A stretch of 64,000 nt of DNA, from contig QCGH01000001.1 of the NCBI GenBank assembly GCA_003280005.1, forward strand, positions 1 to 64,000, given 5' to 3'. The stretch is from Pelagibacteraceae bacterium AG-365-D07 (GTDB lineage: Bacteria; Pseudomonadota; Alphaproteobacteria; Pelagibacterales; Pelagibacteraceae). Under the pieces are notes generated by a model. That model saw nothing but the letters and a program-made list of their open reading frames with translations. It made no database searches and was not told the DNA's origin. The position numbers were made by a program, and so were the translations under genes. Numbering within the stretch: position 1 is the stretch's first letter; every line of letters starts with the position of its first letter. This document shows, piece after piece, positions 1,672-60,289 of this stretch.

Positions 1672-3587
1672 TGTTAAATATAACTCTACCAGACGGAAAT
1701 AAACTTAACTTTGAAAAAAAAGTTACAGGTACAGAAGTTGCTAAAAAGATTAGTAAATCGCTCTCTAAAGATGCTTTATTGATAAGTATTGATGGCAAGT
1801 TGAAAGATCTTAATACGGTCATAGATAAAGATTGTTCTGTAAAAATATTTACTTCAAAAGATAAAGAGGGACTAGAAACAATAAGGCATGACACTGCACA
1901 TGTTTTAGCTATGGCTGTTCAAGAATTATTCCCAGGGACTCAAGTTACAATTGGGCCCGTTATAGAAGATGGTTTTTATTATGATTTTGCTAGAAAAGAA
2001 CCATTCACAGATGATGATTTAAATAAAATTGAAAATAAAATGAAAGAAATTATTCAACGTGATGAAAAAACGACTAGGGAAGTTTGGCCCAGAAAAAAAG
2101 CTATTGAGCATTTTAAAAAAATTGGTGAAACTTATAAAGCAGAAATTATAAAAACTATTCCGGAAGGTGAAGAAGTTTCAATCTACTTTCATGGAAAATG
2201 GCATGATCTCTGTAGAGGTCCACACTTAACATCAACAGGTAAAATTGGAAAGTTTTTCAAACTCACAAAAGTATCTGGTGCTTATTGGAGGGGAGACTCT
2301 AGCAACGAGATGCTACAGAGAGTATATGGCACAAGTTGGTCAACTCAAAAGGACTTAGACGATTACCTTAAAAGAATTGAGGAAGCCGAAAAACGCGATC
2401 ATAGAAAATTAGGAAAAATAATGGATCTTTTTCATTTTAGAGAGGAAAGTCCAGGAGCAGTTTTTTGGCATGAAAAGGGATGGGCGCTATTTCAAAAACT
2501 TGTTTCCTACATGAGATTTAAACAAGATCAAGCAGGTTATAAAGAAATAAATACCCCCGAAATACTAGATAGATCACTCTGGGAAAAATCTGGACACTGG
2601 GAAAAGTTTGGAGCAAATATGTATACCTCTGAAACACCAGATCAAAAAATTTTTGCTATCAAACCAATGAATTGCCCAGGTTGTGTTCAAGTATTTAATC
2701 AAGGTTTAAAAAGTTATAGAGATTTGCCATTTAAAATGTCTGAATTTGGAAAAGTTCATAGATATGAGCCATCAGGTGCTTTACATGGACTTTTAAGGGT
2801 ACGAGCCTTTACACAAGATGATGCACATATTTTTTGTACAGAAAATCAAATTACAGAGGAGTGCGTCTCAGTAACAAATTTAATTTTAGAAATTTATAAA
2901 GATTTGGGATTTGAAAATGTAATCCTTAAGTATTCAGACAGACCAGATTTAAGAGTAGGAGATGATGCTGTTTGGGATAAATCTGAAGCTGCATTGATTA
3001 AAGCAGTAGAAGCTTCAAAACTAGAATATAGTATTAATAAAGGAGAGGGTGCTTTTTATGGTCCAAAAATAGAATTTGTTTTAAGAGATGCAATTGGAAG
3101 AGATTGGCAATGTGGAACTTTACAGGTTGACTTAAATTTACCTGGAAGGTTAGGTGCAAGTTATGTAGATAAAGATGGGTCAAAAAAAATACCTGTCATG
3201 CTTCATAGAGCTTTATTTGGTTCACTTGAAAGATTTATAGGTATACTAATTGAAAATTATGCTGGTAAATTACCCTTCTGGATTTCACCATTACAAACCG
3301 TTATAATACCAGTATCTGAAGATTTTAATGATTATGCCATATCAGTACATAAAAAAATTAAAAATTCTGGTATTTCATGTGATATAGATTTAAAAAATCA
3401 TAATTTAAATTACAAAATTCGTGAACATTCAAACGCAAAAGTACCGATGTTATTGATTTGTGGAAAAAAAGAAGTTGACTCTAATGCTGTAACTATTAGA
3501 AGATTGGACTCAAATAAACAAGAAAATATGTTAATTGAAGAATTTATAAAAAAATATACTGCTTTAAACAAAGCTCCATCAATTTAG
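1671..3587 (+). CDS. thrS: Threonyl-tRNA synthetase
   Basis: A class II aminoacyl-tRNA synthetase of 638 residues, the normal length. An N-terminal TGS domain is followed by the editing domain with HDTAHVLA, then the catalytic core with MNCPG and the YEPSGALHGLLRVR motif 2 region, FTQDDAHIF, and motif 3 near LHRALFGSLERF. The C-terminal anticodon-binding domain is complete. In the usual MNCPGH sequence the His is Cys here. It starts at ATG overlapping the previous stop and leads the conserved order thrS-infC-rpmI-rplT-pheS-pheT. Confidence 0.97.
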   Translation: MLNITLPDGNKLNFEKKVTGTEVAKKISKSLSKDALLISIDGKLKDLNTVIDKDCSVKIFTSKDKEGLETIRHDTAHVLAMAVQELFPGTQVTIGPVIEDGFYYDFARKEPFTDDDLNKIENKMKEIIQRDEKTTREVWPRKKAIEHFKKIGETYKAEIIKTIPEGEEVSIYFHGKWHDLCRGPHLTSTGKIGKFFKLTKVSGAYWRGDSSNEMLQRVYGTSWSTQKDLDDYLKRIEEAEKRDHRKLGKIMDLFHFREESPGAVFWHEKGWALFQKLVSYMRFKQDQAGYKEINTPEILDRSLWEKSGHWEKFGANMYTSETPDQKIFAIKPMNCPGCVQVFNQGLKSYRDLPFKMSEFGKVHRYEPSGALHGLLRVRAFTQDDAHIFCTENQITEECVSVTNLILEIYKDLGFENVILKYSDRPDLRVGDDAVWDKSEAALIKAVEASKLEYSINKGEGAFYGPKIEFVLRDAIGRDWQCGTLQVDLNLPGRLGASYVDKDGSKKIPVMLHRALFGSLERFIGILIENYAGKLPFWISPLQTVIIPVSEDFNDYAISVHKKIKNSGISCDIDLKNHNLNYKIREHSNAKVPMLLICGKKEVDSNAVTIRRLDSNKQENMLIEEFIKKYTALNKAPSI

Positions 3588-29658: not shown

Positions 29659-30588
29659 ATGCAAAAAAAAATTGGTTTTATGGGAACGCCAAATTTCGCT
29701 GTTCCAATTCTTAAAAATATTTATCAAAATGGTTATGAAGTATCTGTTGTATATACTCAACCACCTAGTAAATCGAATAGAGGACAAAAGTTAAAAAAAT
29801 CTCCAATACAATCATTTGCTGAAACAATTAACTTTAACGTAAGAACTCCTGATAATTTAAAAAATAATAAATCTGAATGTGAATATTTCAAAAATTTAGA
29901 ATTAGACCTAGTAATTATAGTTGCCTATGGAATAATAATTCCAAAAGAATTCTTATCATTAAGTAAAGAGGGTTTTATTAATCTTCATGCATCAATACTG
30001 CCAAAATGGAGAGGTGCTGCGCCAATTCAACGATCAATAATGAGTCAAAATAAAGAAACTGGTATTAGCGTAATGAGAATAAACGAAAAATTAGATGAAG
30101 GTGATATTTCACACATATTTAAAATTAATATAGAGGAAAATGAAAATGCTGAAAGTTTGAGCGAAAAACTTTCAGCATTGGCATCTGAAAAAATTTCAGA
30201 GGTAATCGATAGCATTATTGATAAAGAAGCAGAATTTAAACCTCAAGACCATTCCAAAGCAACATATGCAAAAAAAATAGATAAAACTGAGGGTTTAATT
30301 GATTGGAATGATAAAGCTGAAAATATCATTGGGAAAATAAATGGATTGTTTCCATATCCTGGTGGGTATTTTGTTTATAAGGGAGAAAGATATAAAATTT
30401 TAAAAGCACAAATATCTTTCAATAAAGATCAACCAGGAAAAGTTCTATCAAATAACCTTGAAATTAGCTGTGGGGAAAATTCAATTAAAATTTTAGAAAT
30501 ACAGCGTGAAGGAAAAAAACCACAAAATATTAGTCAGTTTATACTTGGTTCTCAAATAGAAAAAGGAACCAATTTATTTAATGTTTAG
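29659..30588 (+). CDS. fmt: Methionyl-tRNA formyltransferase
   Basis: A 309-residue enzyme. KIGFMGTPNFAVPIL opens the Rossmann-like domain; VVAYGIIIPKE, INLHASILPKWRGAAPIQRSI (with the catalytic Asn/His) and DEGDI (catalytic Asp) follow, then the C-terminal OB domain. It formylates Met-tRNA-fMet using 10-formyl-THF. The stop overlaps truA by 8 bp. Confidence 0.97.
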   Translation: MQKKIGFMGTPNFAVPILKNIYQNGYEVSVVYTQPPSKSNRGQKLKKSPIQSFAETINFNVRTPDNLKNNKSECEYFKNLELDLVIIVAYGIIIPKEFLSLSKEGFINLHASILPKWRGAAPIQRSIMSQNKETGISVMRINEKLDEGDISHIFKINIEENENAESLSEKLSALASEKISEVIDSIIDKEAEFKPQDHSKATYAKKIDKTEGLIDWNDKAENIIGKINGLFPYPGGYFVYKGERYKILKAQISFNKDQPGKVLSNNLEISCGENSIKILEIQREGKKPQNISQFILGSQIEKGTNLFNV

Positions 30589-45732: not shown

Positions 45733-45954
45733 TTGGCAAAAGAAGATGGAATTTTAGAGTATAGAGGCAAAATTTTAAAGGCTTTGCCAAATGCCATGTT
45801 TGAAGTTTTGTTAATTGAAAATGGACATAAAGTAATAGGTTATACAGCTGGTAAATTAAAAAAAGGAAGAATTCGTTTACTAGAGGGTGATGAAGTGCTT
45901 TGCTCAGTAAGTCCATATGATTTAGCACGTTGTAGGATAACCTGGAGATATTAA
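45733..45954 (+). CDS. infA: Translation initiation factor IF-1
   Basis: A 73-residue OB-fold protein starting at TTG (MAKEDGILEYRGKILKALPNAMF), with GHKVIGYTAGKLKKGRIRLLEGDEV and PYDLARCRITWRY at the end. Length and sequence are standard for IF-1. The stop is two bases from tRNA-Phe, so the tRNA is probably processed from the same transcript. Confidence 0.96.
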   Translation: MAKEDGILEYRGKILKALPNAMFEVLLIENGHKVIGYTAGKLKKGRIRLLEGDEVLCSVSPYDLARCRITWRY

Positions 45955-51838: not shown

Positions 51839-52019
51839 TTTTTTCTTTTACAATGTTTCCTAAGTCTTCGGTATGTCTAATATTGGGATTATTATTAGAT
51901 GAATATATTTTAAGCTCATTATTATTTGTTTTAATCAAAACTAAATATTTAGCTCCTGGTTTCTCCATTTTCTGTTCTTGGATTTCTATTTCTATTTTTT
52001 TTGAATTAATTATCGTCAT
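51828..52019 (-). CDS. Small protein at the end of the exonuclease operon
   Basis: A 63-residue protein, MTIINSKKIEIEIQEQKMEK at the start. It has strand-like segments (KYLVLIKTNNNELKIYSS) and no membrane span. Its ATG overlaps the exonuclease stop as ATGA, which supports real translation as the third gene of the leftward operon. No family is recognised. Confidence 0.6.
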   Translation of the reverse strand: MTIINSKKIEIEIQEQKMEKPGAKYLVLIKTNNNELKIYSSNNNPNIRHTEDLGNIVKEKTIS

Positions 52020-53479
52020 AGATATTTTTCATGGTCCTCAGACATTTTTTCTAAATGACTATTAATTAATTCAACTTTTTTTAATTTTTCTTTGTCATGT
52101 TTTTCTTGAACTCTGATTTCGTCAATTCTTAAAAATTGAGAAGGTATCGTAGGATAACTTTCATTATTAGTTGAAAGTAGTCTTTGACTTATACCTTTTC
52201 TAATTCTTTTATAGTCTTTATCAGCAAAAGCTTCTTTACCATATTCATCAATCAAAATTAATTCAGATAGATGTTTTAAATCTTCATCACCATCGAAGTT
52301 TTGAGCAATTCTTTGTTTTTCTTCCATTTTATTTGCTATGACAAAGTCATTCATATATCTTTGAGTGTCTTTTGAAGGTTTTAAAGCAAATATTTTTTCC
52401 TCAGGTTTTAGTTTTGTTTGATCTAAACTTTTTTCTTCAAATTTATCTTTTAATATTACATTTATCTTTGTTGCAATCTCAGATCTATTTTTAATTATAT
52501 AGTCAGCTCTTTTTTCAAGTTCATCTTTACCAATAGCTGAATATTCATCTTGTATACTTTGTACCCATTTTTCTTCAGGTTTTAAAATTAAAGGAAGTCT
52601 ATTTGATTTTATAGTTCTCATTTTTACCGGTGTTGCAAAAAGAAGTTTTGATAATTCTTGATTACTCTTACCTTCAAATATATCTTTCGGATCATGCTTT
52701 AGATCAAAAGCAAGTATATATCCAGCATAGAAACTATGTTCAGTTAAAAAACAACATGCAAACTGTCTTGTTTTAGAGAAAAAGGTTTCAGTTGTATAAA
52801 AATATTTTAGATTTTTTATGTAAGGTAAAACATCTTTTTTGTTAATAAATTGTAAATTTTTATTAAAAAGTTCACTATCATTTTTTTTTAAATACTCAGT
52901 TAAATTTTTTAAACCAAGTGTATCATCCTTGGCTGTGTGGCTATCTTTAATAGGAAAACCATTCATCGCACATAAAGAAGCTAGTTTAAAAATTTTATGA
53001 TTTTTTTTATTGATGTCAGTCTTTAATATATTTGGATTATAATATTCCATGTTCCTTGCAAGAGGAAGCGTATCCATTTGGCAAGCATTTGTAGAGAATA
53101 ACCATGGGAAGCTATATAAATTTGAAAACCATGTATGAGAAGTTAATAGGAAGTCAAAATTAAACCCTGCATAAGCATTAAATTTAACGTGACCTTTGTT
53201 TTTCCATTTTGTAAATGTTTCACTGAGTTTTTTTGCAATACCGTGATTACTATAAGTATGTTTTTCTTTGTCATAAATATCATATGGATTTAAGCCATTT
53301 ACTAATAAGGCATCACACTCATATGATCTAGAAATTCTAGGTCGAGCAAATAAATCAATACTATCAACAATTTTTAAATCTTTATCTCTTACAAGTATTG
53401 CGGAATAAGAGAGCAAATCTGCGTTTATATGTGATCCTGATGTTGTTTCAGCATCTAAGTAACAAGTAAATTGTTCCAT
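52016..53479 (-). CDS. sbcB: Exodeoxyribonuclease I family (DEDDh) exonuclease
   Basis: A 487-residue protein of ExoI length. CYLDAETTS carries the Asp-x-Glu of ExoI; GLNPYDI resembles the ITGITPQ segment; FNAYAGFNFDFLLTSHTWF has the third Asp; SHTAKDDTLGLKNL has the His and final Asp. The C-terminal half would be the SH3-like and helical domains that make ExoI processive on 3' single-stranded ends. It overlaps the regulator-like gene upstream by one base. Distance from E. coli SbcB is large, so substrate details are uncertain. Confidence 0.83.
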   Translation of the reverse strand: MEQFTCYLDAETTSGSHINADLLSYSAILVRDKDLKIVDSIDLFARPRISRSYECDALLVNGLNPYDIYDKEKHTYSNHGIAKKLSETFTKWKNKGHVKFNAYAGFNFDFLLTSHTWFSNLYSFPWLFSTNACQMDTLPLARNMEYYNPNILKTDINKKNHKIFKLASLCAMNGFPIKDSHTAKDDTLGLKNLTEYLKKNDSELFNKNLQFINKKDVLPYIKNLKYFYTTETFFSKTRQFACCFLTEHSFYAGYILAFDLKHDPKDIFEGKSNQELSKLLFATPVKMRTIKSNRLPLILKPEEKWVQSIQDEYSAIGKDELEKRADYIIKNRSEIATKINVILKDKFEEKSLDQTKLKPEEKIFALKPSKDTQRYMNDFVIANKMEEKQRIAQNFDGDEDLKHLSELILIDEYGKEAFADKDYKRIRKGISQRLLSTNNESYPTIPSQFLRIDEIRVQEKHDKEKLKKVELINSHLEKMSEDHEKYL

Positions 53480-54963
53480 TAAGCTATCTCCTTTTTATTT
53501 TGGTCAAAAAATAAATCAAATTCAGGTATTTCTTTTTCATCGAACAAGTCATTTTTATCCATTGATTCATAAAAATTATTTTTTGTTCTTAAATCATTAT
53601 TTTCGAGAAGTTCATTTGCAAAACTAGATTTCCATTTTACCTTTCCAACAATAGTTAAGGCGTCGATGTTAACAGTTATTGGTCGATATTTTTGATTATC
53701 ACTAATAATACTTACCATAACTTTTTGATTTTTATCTTTTTGAACTTTTTTACCAAAATAGAAATCTTCTTGTGATTCTTCTAGATTAATTATTGGTTTT
53801 AACTTCTCAACAAGCAAAGGATTTCCAATACCATATTTTTGGACTAATTCATCAACCTGAAATAAACTAACTTTATCTATACCTTTTGCAAAAACTTTAT
53901 TGATATCTTTTTCAGCCTCCTCTTGCACAAACTCAGGTATTTCATAGTCTCCTTGGTATGTATAATTAAATTGCAATCTTCTTACTGCAAATTTTTCTCC
54001 GAGTTTGTTTTTTTTTGAAAAATCTGGAATTGTAATTGCATAAACACCATCTTTAAATCGATAAGAGCTGTTCTTAGGTGATTTATTATCTTTTAAAGAT
54101 CGATAACTTGGATGTTCATGTATCAATACTTTGTCATTTACCTCAAAACTACCTTTCATATTTTCGTCATCTATAACCAACATAAATAAATTATTTATGT
54201 CAGATATCTTCAGTTCATCTCTTAAAAAACTTTTTGAAAACAACATATCTTCATAATTACTAGAGCCGATTAATGTTGGGGTTACAACTTTTATTTTTTT
54301 ATAATCATCAGGAGCAAGAAATTCTTTCATAAAAATTTTTCGTAGACGTTCTATAATTGGATAGAAGTTTTTTAAATTTTGTATTAACTTTTCATATTGT
54401 TTAAATTTTTTTGTTGGAAGTTCATTCTGTAAGTTTTCTTGATCTGACTCTTCTATATAATTATATGCATCTGAAAAGGAAATTCTTAGATAGTTTTCAA
54501 CATAATTTTCATTATAATTATTATTTTGATCCATGTTACCTAATCTAATTAAATTTAGAGCGTGCAATTCAAGAGCTGGTATTATAAGTTTATTTTTTAT
54601 ATCTTGATTTCTGCAATTAGAAATAATTTCATAAAAATTTTTACTTTGGTCATACCAAAGTCTATCTTTATTTTTTTTAACATATTCTAAGGATTTTTTC
54701 TTATTTCTTACTTTTTTTAAGTTTTTTAAATATAGAGATGAAAAAGCTGCATTAAGAAACAAGTATGAAAATTCACGAGGAAATTGCTCTTCTTTGTACC
54801 TATAAACGTAATGATCAAAAGAGGATCCCCGATTATAAACCATCAAATTACTGCAGTTAGACCTGCTCATGCCGCACTCTTTAAGAATTTTTTCTAGTAA
54901 TTCACGGTTTTTAGTTTTTTCACTAATTGAACGTATAACTTTGTTTAATTTATTTAAATCCAT
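53479..54963 (-). CDS. S24/LexA-fold-like protein without catalytic dyad
   Basis: A 494-residue protein and first gene of the leftward operon. Residues about 1-215 are helical and unrecognised. Residues about 258-332 resemble the S24 peptidase/phage-repressor C-terminal domain: a DDENM...NDKVLI segment where G-D-S-M and G-D are expected, DGVYAITI, and FAVRRLQF for the usual VKRL. A late DALTIVGKVKW fits the family's closing strand. The Ser position is Asn268 and the Lys position Arg328 or Arg329, so self-cleavage is not expected. A repressor or structural homologue is inferred. An operator-like palindrome lies just upstream. Confidence 0.6.
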   Translation of the reverse strand: MDLNKLNKVIRSISEKTKNRELLEKILKECGMSRSNCSNLMVYNRGSSFDHYVYRYKEEQFPREFSYLFLNAAFSSLYLKNLKKVRNKKKSLEYVKKNKDRLWYDQSKNFYEIISNCRNQDIKNKLIIPALELHALNLIRLGNMDQNNNYNENYVENYLRISFSDAYNYIEESDQENLQNELPTKKFKQYEKLIQNLKNFYPIIERLRKIFMKEFLAPDDYKKIKVVTPTLIGSSNYEDMLFSKSFLRDELKISDINNLFMLVIDDENMKGSFEVNDKVLIHEHPSYRSLKDNKSPKNSSYRFKDGVYAITIPDFSKKNKLGEKFAVRRLQFNYTYQGDYEIPEFVQEEAEKDINKVFAKGIDKVSLFQVDELVQKYGIGNPLLVEKLKPIINLEESQEDFYFGKKVQKDKNQKVMVSIISDNQKYRPITVNIDALTIVGKVKWKSSFANELLENNDLRTKNNFYESMDKNDLFDEKEIPEFDLFFDQNKKEIA

Positions 54964-54977
54964 GATTCTTTATATAT

Positions 54978-54991
54978 ACTGTTTATACAGT
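54978..54991. promoter_or_regulatory. 14-bp palindromic operator candidate
   Basis: ACTGTTTATACAGT reads ACTGT, four bases, ACAGT, with perfect arms. It overlaps the -10 box of the leftward promoter, so a bound protein would block that transcript. The sequence ACAG(C)GTGTAAAAA recurs at the rightward promoter (from 55027), suggesting one regulator acts on both. The obvious candidate is the S24-like protein encoded next to it. It is not the alphaproteobacterial LexA box. Confidence 0.55.
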
Positions 54992-55009
54992 GTAAAAAAA
55001 AAATGTCAA
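54982..55009 (-). promoter_or_regulatory. Leftward sigma70 promoter
   Basis: On the minus strand, TTGACA (complement of 55004-55009), a 16-bp spacer containing ten consecutive T, then TATAAA (complement of 54982-54987). It would start transcription about 13 bases before the S24-like gene. Both boxes are at or near consensus, which is unusual in this genome. Confidence 0.6.
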
Positions 55010-55023
55010 ATCAAAAATAACTG

Positions 55024-55052
55024 TTGACAGCGTGTAAAAATGACTATATTAT
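55024..55052 (+). promoter_or_regulatory. Rightward sigma70 promoter
   Basis: TTGACA at 55024-55029, an exact 17-bp spacer, and TATTAT at 55047-55052. The -35 box is inside CTGTTGACAG, a second ACAG-containing site. Transcription would begin near 55059, practically on the ATG at 55060. Its strength suggests that repression is needed to keep the operon off. Confidence 0.65.
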
Positions 55053-55351
55053 TAGTATTATGATAAATAAAATAATTAGTTTGCTGAATAAGAGGGAGAT
55101 CCTTTCTTCTCTACTTTCTGTCAAAACTCCTTCTGGAAAAAAAACTAATTGTTTACCTTTCATAAGCGCTCTCAAAAAGGGGGACGAAGTAATGTCTGGG
55201 TTATTATCCTTTCTCGCTAGTCTTAACCAGGCAATACAGCTGATAATCTTTGAAGTTATCTTTCCTTTTAAGAAAATCAGAGTTCCCCTTAGAAGGGAAT
55301 ATCATGCAATAAATCATAACTTTAATAAAAAAATAAATATAGGAGGTCAAA
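55053..55351 (+). other. Atypical leader segment before the WGR gene
   Basis: About 300 bases between the rightward promoter and the WGR gene. Base usage is less AT-extreme than the surroundings, with runs such as AGGGAGATCC, CTCAAAAAGGGGGACG and a hairpin TTCCC/GGGAA near 55285-55301. It could be an untranslated regulatory leader or structured RNA, or contain the weak reading frame listed separately. Confidence 0.4.
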
Positions 55352-55368
55352 ATGAAAAAATATTTTGA
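55060..55368 (+). CDS. Doubtful 102-residue frame in the leader
   Basis: From ATG 55060 the frame MINKIISLLNKREILSSLLS runs 102 codons and ends 17 bases inside the WGR gene. It uses codons rare in this genome (CTC, CTT, GGG, CCC, AGG) and shows no recognisable motif; residues about 44-66 are hydrophobic. If translated, the mRNA would be nearly leaderless. It may equally be a chance frame in a non-coding leader. Confidence 0.3.
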   Translation: MINKIISLLNKREILSSLLSVKTPSGKKTNCLPFISALKKGDEVMSGLLSFLASLNQAIQLIIFEVIFPFKKIRVPLRREYHAINHNFNKKINIGGQNEKIF

Positions 55369-55561
55369 ATTTAAAAACGAAGTTTCAAATAAATTCTGGG
55401 AAATATCACAAAAAGGTATTTTAGTAAAAGTTGTTTTTGGAAGAATTGGAATTCAAAATCCACAGGAACAAATCAAAGAATTTTTAAATGAGCAGGAGGC
55501 AAAAAAATTTGCTGATAAGAAAATAAGAGAAAAAATCAACAAAGGATACATTCAACATTAG
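55352..55561 (+). CDS. Stand-alone WGR-domain protein
   Basis: A 69-residue protein. FEFKNEVSNKFWEISQKGILVKVVFGRIGIQNPQEQIKEF is the WGR pattern (here FGRIG replaces WGRxG), and the helix EQEAKKFADKKIREKINKGY closes the domain. WGR domains bind DNA ends or nucleic acids in PARP1-type enzymes and in bacterial proteins such as MolR. Here the domain is the whole protein. AGGAGG five bases before the ATG is a strong ribosome binding site. Confidence 0.82.
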   Translation: MKKYFEFKNEVSNKFWEISQKGILVKVVFGRIGIQNPQEQIKEFLNEQEAKKFADKKIREKINKGYIQH

Positions 55562-55562
55562 T

Positions 55563-55868
55563 ATGCAAAGTAAATATAGAAATATTTTAAAAGAAAGATT
55601 GGTTTTTTATAAAATTTGGAAAAATGATTGGGATTTATATTTCTTTCATAAATCAATATCTGAAAAAGCTAAAAAAAAATATTACTCAGAGAGAAAATTT
55701 TTAAAATTATTGCTTTTTATTTATTTTCTACCTTTGAAAATATTTAAATATATAGAAGATTCTAGAGATGCTCATATTTATAATAAAGGAGTAACTTTAA
55801 TGAAAGTAATTCAAGATGAATTAGATGAAACAAAAAAAATAAACCAATCAAGGGAGGAAAATGAATAA
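55563..55868 (+). CDS. Hypothetical protein with one hydrophobic segment
   Basis: A 101-residue protein. A basic first half contains FHKSISEKAKKKYYSERKF, followed by a hydrophobic stretch (LLLFIYFLPLKIF, about residues 48-60) too short or borderline for a full membrane span, then an acidic helical tail. It starts one base after the WGR stop and overlaps the ATPase-protease start by 8 bp. No family is recognised. Confidence 0.6.
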   Translation: MQSKYRNILKERLVFYKIWKNDWDLYFFHKSISEKAKKKYYSERKFLKLLLFIYFLPLKIFKYIEDSRDAHIYNKGVTLMKVIQDELDETKKINQSREENE

Positions 55869-57450
55869 TATTTCAAAATTAAAAGATTTGCTTTTAGAGC
55901 TAAAAGAAGTCAGTCAAGCAGAATACATAAAAAGTGTAGAGAGTGCAGTTACCACCGCCTGGGGTGAAGAAGTTTGGGATCACGATAAATTAAGTAGAGA
56001 TTGTCTACAAAATATGGTTGATGGTTGTGTGGAAGCTAACATTGGGATAGATAAAATTAAAATCAAAACAGAAGATGACCAAATCAAAGTACACGCACCA
56101 AATGAGTACTCATTAGAGAGACTATATTATATAGGTTCCACTAAATCAGAAAAATCCTACAGACAAATTGGTGCTCATGGTGAAGGAATTAAGAAATGTT
56201 TTTCAGATTTAGCAAGAATAGGAATTTTCAATCCTATCTTGTTATCTGGTGATAAAGCTTTAATTATTACTGTTGGTAAAGAGGTGCCAGAAACAGAATT
56301 AAGACCATTAGTTTATAATTATTTTAAAATTAATAAAATTGATGGGAATTATTTAATTATAAATACAATTGATAAAAAGTTAAAAAAAAGTTTTCAATTT
56401 GGTTTGAGAAACTTTTTTTATTCAAAGAATCCAGTCATAGGTGAGGTTCTTCATTCGTATAACGATATTACAATTTATAAATCTACAGAAAAAAATGGAT
56501 ATGGATTTTACAAGGGTTTAAAAAGAGTTGATATTAAAGGAATACCCGTTGTTATCTCAATTGATAAGGCTTATAGCGCTTTAGAGAAGAAAACAAAGAT
56601 AGATCGTGACCGACAAGCATTCGATACAAAGTTACAAAGTACATTTTTTTCAATATTCGCAAGATCTGGTTTTTATTATAACGATCTACCCGGAAATGTT
56701 GCCATTAGATATATTTTAGAAAATTCTAAAGATATATGGTCTACTGGACATTTATTGTTAAGTGCAATTGCATCATATTCATATGGAAGATTAAAAGATG
56801 ATAAGTATTTAAAAGAACTATTTAAAGAAGGTTTTTATGCTGAGTCGAGGTGGACTTGGAGTAGAGAGATTTCCTATAATGATTGGTTTTCTACTAAAGT
56901 TCAAAACTGGATAAGACAAAAAACAAATAAAGAAAAAAAGAATAAAAAGCTACTGCCAGCATATTTTACAAATTTTGGTGTTGAATCTGCTCTAGATAAA
57001 TTCATAAAAAATAAGAAAGCGGCTGAAAAAAGAATTAAAAATAAAAAAACAATGGAATTAACTACAAGAGAAAAGAAAGCTATTAATTTTTGTTTTGATG
57101 CCGCAAAGAGTATTAGTCCAAGTTTTTCAAAATTATTTTCAGGGGATGAATATGATGATCCTTTGTACGAGGTAAAATTTAGAACTATAACTTGTAAAGA
57201 TATTTTAGGAGAATTAAAAAATTCGTCAGATCATAATTCAAAATTGATTTATTTACACAAAACTTTATTTAACGAATCATTTGGCAAGATGATGTCTGTA
57301 TTTTTACATGAACTATCACATACCTTAGGTCATGATGATGGATCAAGAGAGTTTAGTGACTCACTTACTGTATTAATACAAAAGTGCATTGATAATAATA
57401 AGAGTGTTCAAAAATATTCTAAACAATGGTCGCATTTAATAAAAAACTAA
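55861..57450 (+). CDS. GHKL-type ATPase with C-terminal zincin motif
   Basis: A 529-residue protein. Residues about 44-115 read as a GHKL ATPase: RDCLQNMVDGC as the N box (Asn51, Asp54) and IGSTKSEKSYRQIGAHGEGIKK as the ATP lid (GxxGxG at 104-109). The DxGxG box between them is not obvious, which weakens ATPase prediction. The far C-terminus has HELSHTLGHDD (His483, Glu484, His487, Gly490, Asp493), a HExxHxxGxxD metzincin-type zinc site. The middle is unassigned. GAGGAAA precedes the ATG. A nucleotide-gated protease is inferred. Confidence 0.7.
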   Translation: MNNISKLKDLLLELKEVSQAEYIKSVESAVTTAWGEEVWDHDKLSRDCLQNMVDGCVEANIGIDKIKIKTEDDQIKVHAPNEYSLERLYYIGSTKSEKSYRQIGAHGEGIKKCFSDLARIGIFNPILLSGDKALIITVGKEVPETELRPLVYNYFKINKIDGNYLIINTIDKKLKKSFQFGLRNFFYSKNPVIGEVLHSYNDITIYKSTEKNGYGFYKGLKRVDIKGIPVVISIDKAYSALEKKTKIDRDRQAFDTKLQSTFFSIFARSGFYYNDLPGNVAIRYILENSKDIWSTGHLLLSAIASYSYGRLKDDKYLKELFKEGFYAESRWTWSREISYNDWFSTKVQNWIRQKTNKEKKNKKLLPAYFTNFGVESALDKFIKNKKAAEKRIKNKKTMELTTREKKAINFCFDAAKSISPSFSKLFSGDEYDDPLYEVKFRTITCKDILGELKNSSDHNSKLIYLHKTLFNESFGKMMSVFLHELSHTLGHDDGSREFSDSLTVLIQKCIDNNKSVQKYSKQWSHLIKN

Positions 57451-57466: not shown

Positions 57467-58603
57467 ATGACAACGATTCTATCATTTGCAGTAATTATTT
57501 TGGTTTTAATTTTAGGAGGTCTAATTTTTTATATATTAAAAAATAAAAAAAACCAAGAAGGTATAGATCTTAATAGTCCCGAAATTATTAAACTAGATAG
57601 TCAAATTAATAATCTTGAAAATACAATAACTGTGAAAGACGATTATATTGAACAACTAAAAAAAGATAAAGAAATCTTAGTACAAAATTCAAAAAACGCA
57701 GATTCTTATAAAGAGGTGTCTGATAAAAGTTTTCAGGAATATACTTCTTTAGTTCAAGAGTATAGAAATTTTCATGAAAAGCTCGTTGGAAATGTTAAAT
57801 ACCAAGGGGAATACAATGAAAAAAAATTACAAAGATTACTTGAAAAAAATGGACTAGTTAAAGATCAAGATTTTACTGTTAGAGAGGGACAAATTAATAA
57901 AGACCCAGTTACAGGATTAAGCAAAAGAGTAAATCCTGATTTTATAATTACCCTTCCTGAAGAAAATAGTATTGTTATTGACTGCAAGGTTTCACTTAAA
58001 AACTTCGAGGATTTTGCTAATGAAAAAGATCCTAAACTTAGAAGTGCACATATAAATAAACATTTAGCATCAGTTAGGGATCACATCAAAAGTCTTGCCA
58101 AAAAAAATTATACTAAATTATATAATTTGAAGTCATTTCAATATGTAATTATGTTTATGCCATTTGATACATGTTATTTGTCTGCAATTGAGTATGACAA
58201 GGAATTGCTAGATTTTGCTGCAGAAAATAAGGTTATTTTAGCAGGCCCAATATCAATAATGGCTTTAATTGCAAATGTTACAAGTCTAAAAAATCAACAC
58301 AAACAAATTTCAATTGTTGATAATGTTGTAAAAGATGCTGAGGCAGTATGGGATAAATACACAGTTGTAAGAAACAATATTAAAACATTATTTTCTAGTT
58401 TTAAGACACATAGAAATGCCTTAGAGAGTTTAATTAATAGTACCTATGGTAAAAAGAGCGGGCTTGAGAACTTGATTGTGAAATTAAAAGATGATCATGG
58501 CCTAGAAGGCGGTTCCAAACTTCATTCTACAACAGAGGATGAAAAAATTGTTCCTGATTTAGAAGATGCCGAAGATAAAAAGATAAAAAGTATTGTGAAT
58601 TAA
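57467..58603 (+). CDS. rmuC: DNA recombination protein RmuC
   Basis: A 378-residue RmuC. One N-terminal membrane helix (residues 5-24), a coiled coil (about 35-105), and the RmuC core with VNPDFIITLPEENSIVIDCKVSLKNFEDF, which carries the PD-(D/E)XK-like Asp-x-Lys, then YVIMFMPFDTCY. RmuC limits recombination at inverted repeats. AAAGGAG precedes the ATG by six bases. It ends the rightward operon, 58 bp before the thioredoxin gene. Confidence 0.92.
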   Translation: MTTILSFAVIILVLILGGLIFYILKNKKNQEGIDLNSPEIIKLDSQINNLENTITVKDDYIEQLKKDKEILVQNSKNADSYKEVSDKSFQEYTSLVQEYRNFHEKLVGNVKYQGEYNEKKLQRLLEKNGLVKDQDFTVREGQINKDPVTGLSKRVNPDFIITLPEENSIVIDCKVSLKNFEDFANEKDPKLRSAHINKHLASVRDHIKSLAKKNYTKLYNLKSFQYVIMFMPFDTCYLSAIEYDKELLDFAAENKVILAGPISIMALIANVTSLKNQHKQISIVDNVVKDAEAVWDKYTVVRNNIKTLFSSFKTHRNALESLINSTYGKKSGLENLIVKLKDDHGLEGGSKLHSTTEDEKIVPDLEDAEDKKIKSIVN

Positions 58604-58661: not shown

Positions 58662-59032
58662 ATGGCAGTTCATGAAGTAACAGATGATAATTTTGAAGAA
58701 AGGGTAATGAAAAACACCAAGGACGTTCTAATTAGAATGACCGCCGAATGGTGTGGTTGATTGCCCCCTAACTTTTCGTTAGGGGGAATTTAAACGGCCC
58801 ATGTAAAACTCTCGCTCCAATAGTTTCTAAAATTTCTGATATGTCAGAGATGTCAAATATTGAATTTCTGGTTCTAGATATCGATTCTAATCCAAACAGC
58901 CCGATAAGAGGAGAATTTATGGTTCGTGGGATACCTGCATGTTTTTATGTAAGAGCAGGCAAAGTTATTTCATCTAAAATTGGCATGACAACCGAAAGTG
59001 ATTTCTTAGCTTGGATTAACTCAAATAAATAA
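58662..59032 (+). CDS. trxA: Thioredoxin interrupted by a 41-nt gap at its active site
   Basis: Codons 58662-58757 encode 32 residues ending AEWCG; the next codon is TGA. From CCA at 58799 the frame resumes as PCKTLAPI and continues 77 codons to TAA, including the cis-Pro loop GIPAC and a normal C-terminal helix. Joined, it is a 109-residue thioredoxin with intact WCGPCK. The buried Asp that lies six residues before the first active-site Cys in E. coli is Arg here. folC follows convergently, as in many alphaproteobacteria where trxA neighbours folC and accD. Expression needs bypassing, RNA removal of the gap, or the gene is broken. Confidence 0.8.
58758..58798 (+). other. 41-nt non-coding gap with GC hairpin, bypass candidate
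   Basis: The gap begins with TGA right after GGT (Gly) and ends with GGC (Gly). CCCCCTAAC (58764-58772) pairs perfectly with GTTAGGGGG (58778-58786) around TTTTC. AGGGGG lies nine bases before GGC and could act as a Shine-Dalgarno-like element. GGU and GGC are both read by tRNA-Gly(GCC). Forty-one is not a multiple of three, and both shifted frames through the gap contain stops. Confidence 0.7.
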
Positions 59033-60289
59033 TTAGTTCTTACTTAATACATTCCCTACATGATACAAACTTCCAAAAACACAAATTGTCTTCGCTTTAT
59101 TTGAATTTAACTTCTTAAAAGCTTCTTGGATACTTTTTGCTTTATCAACAGAATGTCCATTTTTAATAGCAATTATTTTAAGATCTTCAGCCGTACACGA
59201 ATTTGGCTCACTATCAATATTCATAGTTATTATTTTTTTAAATATACCTTGAAAATTCTTTAAAAATTGTGAAGGCATTTTATTTTTTTGCATAGCCCAG
59301 ATCCCGTAAATAGGCCCCTTCAAAGTCTTTAGGTAATTATATAAGTTTTGTGCTGAAGCATTAGAATGAGCACCATCTAAAAGGAGAGCTTCATTTTTGT
59401 TTAGATATTTTCTTAGTTTGCCTTTTTTAATATATTCTAATCGTCCTTCGAATTTAATTTTAGGTATAGTTTTTGTAATTATTTTTAATTTTATATTTAA
59501 GTCTAATGCAATTTTGATTGCTAAACCTAGATTATCAATTAATCCTTTGCTGTGAATATAATTAGAATTAATTTTAATTAAATTTTTATTATCCTTGTAA
59601 AATAACTTTTTCTTTTTACTAATTATTTTCCAAGAAGAGGGGTAAGTAATATTACTCTTATTCTTTTTAAGTATTTTTTTTACTATCCTTAAAACTTTTG
59701 GCTTCTGTTTTCCTATATAAATATTTGTATTATTGCTCATATACCCAACTTTTTGTCTACAAATTTCATTAATAGTTTTAGGATAAACCCACTCAAGATG
59801 CTGCTTGTTTAAATTTGTACATATCTGTATAAAAGGCTTATCCCATACTCGGGATGCATCTCCCTTGAACAGAAGTCCCGCCTCCTGCAAAGAAAAATCA
59901 GCATTTTCTTTTGAGGCTGCTAAGATATGAACTAAAGTTAAAACCTCAAATAAGCTAAGTTTAATTTTGAGTTTTGAGATTTTTTTTTCATATTTTTTAA
60001 TTTCTTTTAGAGAAATAAATCTATTTTTTAACCAGAAACGAGTTCGTAAATCATAAAGATGAGGTGAAAAGTTAGCAGTTGCAGTATTGCCATTTGCTTC
60101 AAGGAAATATTGGAGCGCTTTAATACAAGTGAACTTGCCATCGCTACCTATTATGTTTATTGGCCTTTTTAATTTTAAATGTGGTGAATTTAAAAGAAAT
60201 AAAGCTTTTTTAACTCTAGATAAACCCAATGAAATACTTCTACTATATTTTTTTTGTAGGTTTTTATAATAGATTTCAGAGTTAATCAT
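59033..60289 (-). CDS. folC: Folylpolyglutamate/dihydrofolate synthase
   Basis: A 418-residue Mur-ligase-fold enzyme. PINIIGSDGKFTCIKAL stands where the GTNGKGS P-loop is expected, FEGRLEYI matches the PGRLE motif, and LLLDGAHSNASAQNL matches DGAHNP. HLYDLRTRFWLKN resembles HL..~ERI. It adds glutamates to folates and may make dihydrofolate. The P-loop departure (GSDGKFT) is notable and could affect ATP binding. It lies next to accD in the conserved trp block. Confidence 0.85.
   Translation of the reverse strand: MINSEIYYKNLQKKYSRSISLGLSRVKKALFLLNSPHLKLKRPINIIGSDGKFTCIKALQYFLEANGNTATANFSPHLYDLRTRFWLKNRFISLKEIKKYEKKISKLKIKLSLFEVLTLVHILAASKENADFSLQEAGLLFKGDASRVWDKPFIQICTNLNKQHLEWVYPKTINEICRQKVGYMSNNTNIYIGKQKPKVLRIVKKILKKNKSNITYPSSWKIISKKKKLFYKDNKNLIKINSNYIHSKGLIDNLGLAIKIALDLNIKLKIITKTIPKIKFEGRLEYIKKGKLRKYLNKNEALLLDGAHSNASAQNLYNYLKTLKGPIYGIWAMQKNKMPSQFLKNFQGIFKKIITMNIDSEPNSCTAEDLKIIAIKNGHSVDKAKSIQEAFKKLNSNKAKTICVFGSLYHVGNVLSKN

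Follow-up and report, generated by a model that had tools for sequence, protein, structure and literature searches.

A thioredoxin gene (trxA) of the SAR11 group is interrupted inside its active site, between the codons for Gly32 and Pro33, by a hairpin insert that opens with an in-frame stop codon, and an insert with the same stem occupies the same codon in a second SAR11 genome. Because both halves of the gene have been kept intact by selection despite the stop-containing hairpin, the cell most likely skips it. We regard a ribosomal hop over the hairpin during translation as the best explanation and probably the mechanism at work.

Results

The window (the whole 64,000-nucleotide stretch of DNA analyzed) belongs to a 1.05-Mb assembly of 31 contigs with an estimated completeness of 85%. 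Its interrupted trxA lies at positions 58662–59032 of the forward strand, and both sequence and coordinates match the initial annotation exactly (Table 1). The GGT-TGA junction, the 9-bp stem with a five-base loop, the GGC-CCA junction and the 77 open codons reported there are all present, in the order GGT TGATTG CCCCCTAAC TTTTC GTTAGGGGG AATTTAAAC GGC CCA. The accompanying claim that skipping 41 nt restores the WCGPCK motif and a thioredoxin of 109 residues also holds, as Pfam recognizes the joined protein as a full thioredoxin (PF00085, E 3e-21). With up to three mismatches allowed, the window contains no other copy of the stem (0 expected, 100 shuffles), and the local RNA fold at the insert is stronger than that of 195 of 200 shuffles (z = −2.1).

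Table 1. Coordinates of the interrupted trxA, its neighbors and the two infA genes compared.
Feature	Position	Strand	Remarks
infA of the window, uninterrupted	45733..45954	+	comparison site for the AG-439-A02 infA insert
rmuC, upstream neighbor of trxA	57467..58603	+	PF02646, E 1.5e-50
trxA 5' half, codons 1–32, ending E-W-C-G	58662..58757	+	ORF; PF00085 match on the 5' half alone; dN/dS 0.25 vs AG-439-A02
Putative take-off codon GGT	58755-58757	+	last codon of the 5' half
In-frame TGA stop immediately following the take-off codon	58758..58760	+	TAA in AG-439-A02
Perfect 9-bp hairpin, CCCCCTAAC, loop TTTTC, GTTAGGGGG	58764..58786	+	arms 58764-58772 / 58778-58786
3' flank AATTTAAAC and putative landing codon GGC (58796-58798)	58787..58798	+	AAATTTTTAAAA and GGT in AG-439-A02
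trxA 3' half, P-C-K..., 77 open codons and stop	58799..59032	+	dN/dS 0.16 vs AG-439-A02
folC	59033..60289	-	trx-folC-accD order common to relatives
infA of AG-439-A02 with same-stem hairpin	L096 17895-18180	-	start looks like CTG; TTG at the aligned place in the window's infA

Relatives in the genus and the order likewise have trx adjoining folC and accD, and this shared order identifies the window gene as the orthologous trxA rather than a stray copy. No second canonical trxA, which the annotation had considered grounds for refutation if the skipped peptide were also absent, was found in the window assembly (85% complete) or in the second genome; the sole other thioredoxin-family match in the window assembly is a membrane-anchored TlpA-like protein. 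The gene is contiguous and free of stops in 52 of 60 other relatives searched (the remaining eight had no match), as it is in each of the 98 other genomes of the genus with a match at 1e-20. Among uninterrupted thioredoxins, the closest (57%) is that of genome G607, which provides the empty site TGTGGTCCATGT, in which GGT is followed immediately by CCA.

Thioredoxin genes vary widely within the genus. Many intact ones at the trx-folC locus (L039–L053) are without the usual D26/W28 before the active site, so the changes at canonical residues of the window protein (D26, W28 and the T77 region) are not signs of decay. In one relative (G015, L051 near 2974-3420), the thioredoxin has repeated TVSTTEAPKEE units as its C-terminal tail. 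Elsewhere around the locus, accD and the trp genes (L037, L038, L057; 60308-63901 in the window) seem to come in two highly distinct types, with exchange between lineages: in G004 and G005, trx and folC are equally similar to those of the window, yet accD is 56% versus 41% identical, and AG-439-A02 has a divergent type. Beside rmuC, the window holds three long ORFs (52016-57450; 487, 494 and 529 aa) with weak Pfam matches or none (Peptidase_S24 for one).

A scan of GTDB genomes identified the second carrier, AG-439-A02, a SAR11 (Pelagibacteraceae) single cell whose nearest-relative set is identical to that of the window assembly (the same genus set). An independent single-cell genome thus has, at the same codon, the gap that the annotation suggested looking for in relatives. 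The AG-439-A02 thioredoxin is 79% identical to the window's, with a match 43 nt too long, and its gene reads GGT TAATTA CCCCCTAAC TTTT GTTAGGGGG AAATTTTTAAAA GGT CCA. The two inserts, known from these two genomes only (one fragmented assembly and one SAG), differ in the stop codon (TGA versus TAA), the landing codon (GGC versus GGT) and the gap length (41 versus 43 nt), the loop of AG-439-A02 being one base shorter and its 3' flank three bases longer. The stem is identical at 18 of 18 positions, so the hairpin is conserved as expected and the anticipated covariation is absent, there being no compensatory change between two identical stems. Were the stem to change as fast as synonymous sites (pS 0.47), about half of these 18 bases should differ, yet all are the same.

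Over the 109 joined codons there are no stops or indels and mostly third-position changes, with dN/dS of 0.18 at a dS of 0.74. Purifying selection, another check proposed at the outset, is detected in both the 5' half (dS 0.55, Fisher p 0.016) and the 3' half (dS 0.82, Fisher p 4e-8; dN/dS in Table 1), and the downstream half has not decayed. Codons 33–46, which lie ahead of any possible restart in the window gene, show four silent changes and one amino-acid change. By this comparison the insert is evidently old and conserved at the same codon in both genomes, with each half of the gene selected in its own frame. The comparative evidence argues well for one continuous thioredoxin from which the gap is absent. 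Genes near trx are 27% to 73% identical between the two genomes, versus 79% for trx, and inheritance of the insert may include gene transfer; since the divergence measured is that accumulated from a common insert-bearing ancestor, a transfer would leave the argument unaltered.

A hairpin scan of AG-439-A02 revealed a second interrupted gene, infA (encoding IF-1), which is split by CTAGCCCCTAAC-TCTTTTAGG-GTTAGGGGCTAG. The sequence runs ...VLQ GGG GGC TAG, hairpin, ...TTT GGA GAT AAT..., at a site where relatives have VLQ-GGN-GAT. This is the only infA found in the AG-439-A02 genome; the joined IF-1 is 96% identical to its nearest relative over all 71 residues, and infA is whole in the 47 other genomes with a match. 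The trx and infA hairpins of AG-439-A02 share 8-nt arms (CCCCTAAC/GTTAGGGG). A whole-genome search for the stem pattern in both genomes returned only trx (in both) and infA (in AG-439-A02), so the window genome carries one insert and AG-439-A02 carries two. Identical 8-nt arms in two genes are hard to obtain by chance, which suggests that the elements are probably related. The infA gap is 51 or 54 nt and in frame, so that readthrough of the single TAG would instead give a 17-residue insertion, and the take-off is ambiguous because the stop follows GGC, but the matched pair would be GGG/GGA. Since this insert occurs in one genome only, it may be a recent lesion or reflect an amplification artefact.

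The rest of the window genome contains no further copy of the complete insert, apart from one 15-nt chance match. Among 397 order-level and 399 genus-level genomes, as far as inspected, the stem was found in no gene beyond the window's own, and same-stem hairpins occurred in three genomes only (G323, G383 and G457). Those of G323 and G383 are intergenic terminators: the CCCCTAAC/GTTAGGGG hairpins, flanked by A and T, separate convergent transport genes (L070, L071 at 1501) and are apparently bidirectional. The hairpin of G457 (L282) has the loop of the G323 hairpin (L071) read from the other strand. Viral contigs gave 18 stem matches, none in a Gly-stop setting in the flanks examined, and viral thioredoxins are at most 42% identical. 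A strong-hairpin scan of about 0.46 Mb in each of the two genomes detected no other hairpin-split gene; the intergenic strong hairpins resemble ordinary terminators and the others are in frame inside ORFs. A cross-comparison for further split genes also found none, and this method is a weak test because it missed infA as well. In the window, an apparent fmt (methionyl-tRNA formyltransferase) contains a perfect 14-bp inverted repeat (30145-30179) in frame, leaving the ORF unbroken.

Two other identities for the trxA insert were considered and rejected. CCTAAC/GTTAGG resembles the inner core boxes of an integron attC site, but the insert is far too short and the outer bases are wrong. An intrinsic terminator does not fit an insert that lies inside a conserved gene and is followed by AATTTAAAC, the same-stem terminators of G383 and G323 being located between genes.

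Discussion

In the mechanism that we propose, the ribosome would arrive at the Gly codon GGU while a stop codon occupies the A site and the strong hairpin lies just ahead. The peptidyl-tRNA-Gly would then leave the take-off codon, pass the gap (41 nt in the window, 43 nt in AG-439-A02) and re-pair with a Gly codon that the same tRNA can read (GGC or GGU, respectively). Decoding would resume at CCA, yielding a single unbroken thioredoxin whose WCGPCK site is intact. tRNA-Gly(GCC) reads both GGT and GGC, so the suggestion that one tRNA-Gly could serve both codons agrees with the GGT/GGC and GGT/GGT pairs of the two trx genes; between the species, the landing codon differs only within this pair, as re-pairing requires. 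No tRNA-Gly gene was present within the stretches scanned. In infA the pair would be GGG or GGC to GGA. A stop directly follows Gly in all three cases (GGT-TGA, GGT-TAA and GGC-TAG), and gaps of 41, 43 and 54 nt are all shorter than the 56 nt up to which sliding is highly processive (PMC11194080).

The bypass reading of the initial annotation is supported by the same insert and by selection in AG-439-A02, and we infer that the skipping is ribosomal rather than achieved by RNA removal. The latter, our main rival explanation, holds that a tiny intron-like hairpin element is cut from the mRNA and the ends religated, so that ribosomes never meet the insert. It accommodates every DNA-level fact equally well, including the conserved stem, the free length and the selection acting on each half. 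With GG at either border, the exact point of cutting is left open, and in the window sequence weak pairing extends beyond the stem in the direction of the borders. We nevertheless consider it unlikely: we know of no bacterial pathway that precisely removes a 38-51 nt mRNA hairpin, the insert is too short for a self-splicing intron, and a stop directly after Gly and codon-matched borders are unneeded for RNA removal but expected for bypassing. It is quite unlikely that trxA is simply broken, a pseudogene created by a recent or ancestral hairpin insertion with another protein doing the job. A second trxA could sit in the part of the genome missing from the 85% complete assembly, and some canonical residues have changed; similar residues are changed in intact genus relatives, however, and dN/dS of 0.18 over a dS of 0.74, with the insert in both lineages and no stops or indels, excludes neutral decay unless separate recent insertions entered at the same codon. 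The two inserts have diverged like old sequence, which argues against such entries.

Thioredoxin fragments are known to complement, and AG-439-A02 has a GTG in frame with the 3' half, so the halves might be made as separate chains that assemble non-covalently. This is very unlikely, as the GTG frame of AG-439-A02 is not conserved, and in the window gene no ATG, GTG or TTG is in frame from the stop in the frame of the 3' half (58769) up to codon 47, although the protein sequence of codons 33–46 is conserved. Excision of the hairpin at the DNA level in part of the population is highly improbable: both assemblies, one of them from a single cell, carry the insert, and no excised allele of these lineages was seen. 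Recoding at the stop itself, by frameshift, readthrough or selenocysteine with the hairpin as stimulator, is scarcely credible. A TGA with a stem after it is reminiscent of a bacterial SECIS, and AG-439-A02 is open in one shifted frame. But AG-439-A02 has TAA and frame 0 soon meets another stop in both species, so neither readthrough nor selenocysteine can restore the protein, and we reject a selenoprotein. Gaps of 41 and 43 nt differ modulo 3 and need different shifts, the window needing two; a single programmed frameshift is thereby refuted as the common mechanism.

Ribosome bypassing, our preferred reading, follows the pattern of T4 gene 60, in which a Gly take-off codon with a stop in the A site and a hairpin close ahead is paired with a Gly landing codon (PMC5009743). 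The likeness extends to an out-of-frame gap of similar length (50 nt in gene 60) inserted within an otherwise intact gene. The differences are that trx is a bacterial housekeeping gene and that its hairpin lies wholly inside the gap. The take-off stem-loop of gene 60 includes its codon; in trx the strong pairing begins 6 nt past the take-off codon, and weak pairing extends to the codon in the window sequence only. The KKYK nascent-peptide signal is absent from MAVHEVTDDNFEERVMKNTKDVLIRMTAEWCG, where some other peptide signal is possible. The AGGGGG tract, put forward as a Shine-Dalgarno-like aid, is indeed present, but it belongs to the stem, and its spacing from the landing codon varies (9 nt in the window and 12 nt in AG-439-A02, versus 6 nt in gene 60, where its role is modest). 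Because the peptide motif and this spacing differ, we describe the trx case as working like gene 60 and do not file it under the gene 60 type, which those stimulators define. Of the two, bypassing is proven for gene 60 only.

Mitochondrial byp elements of Magnusiomyces capitatus and Saprochaete are likewise short inserts that occur in more than one gene per genome and are tolerated in essential genes; the SAR11 case differs in being bacterial, in having one or two copies per genome versus 81, and in placing stop codons in the A site. A candidate bypass in the terminase of Streptomyces phage Hau3 was also predicted from sequence, with the gap next to a slow codon, but it concerns a phage gene, is UUA-based and has a much shorter gap. 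The view that a byp in a bacterial cellular gene would be new overlooked Prevotella loescheii plaA, for which a 29-nt hop has been reported. That single case, unlike the two species and two genes of SAR11, is unconfirmed; it is the sole bacterial report and was not followed up. Counterparts of bypassing have long been expected (PMC5009743). Our search of a literature library found no paper linking Pelagibacter and translational bypassing.

Taken together, the data are best read as a small family of byp-like inserts over which ribosomes would hop, as in T4 gene 60. The trx insert was probably acquired as a mobile or duplicated element whose entry doubled the 3-nt Gly codon, since GGT...GGT in AG-439-A02 is still a perfect repeat and the empty site of G607 is GGT-CCA. 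Firm proof of efficient bypassing is confined to one phage gene and some yeast mitochondria, and SAR11 trx is the best-supported candidate in a bacterial cellular gene known to us. With the trx gap in two natural variants and another gene interrupted as well, there is a ready comparative system for determining which elements are needed. Should RNA removal prove correct, it would represent a novel form of mRNA processing in bacteria, at least as new as bypassing. Automated annotation would call such interrupted genes broken. We tentatively suggest, as a reading that could well prove wrong, that SAR11 bacteria harbor a mobile hairpin family that inserts at Gly codons of housekeeping genes (trxA and infA), duplicates the codon and is neutralized by ribosome bypassing; such a family would be a bacterial counterpart of the mitochondrial byp elements, long kept and possibly regulatory.
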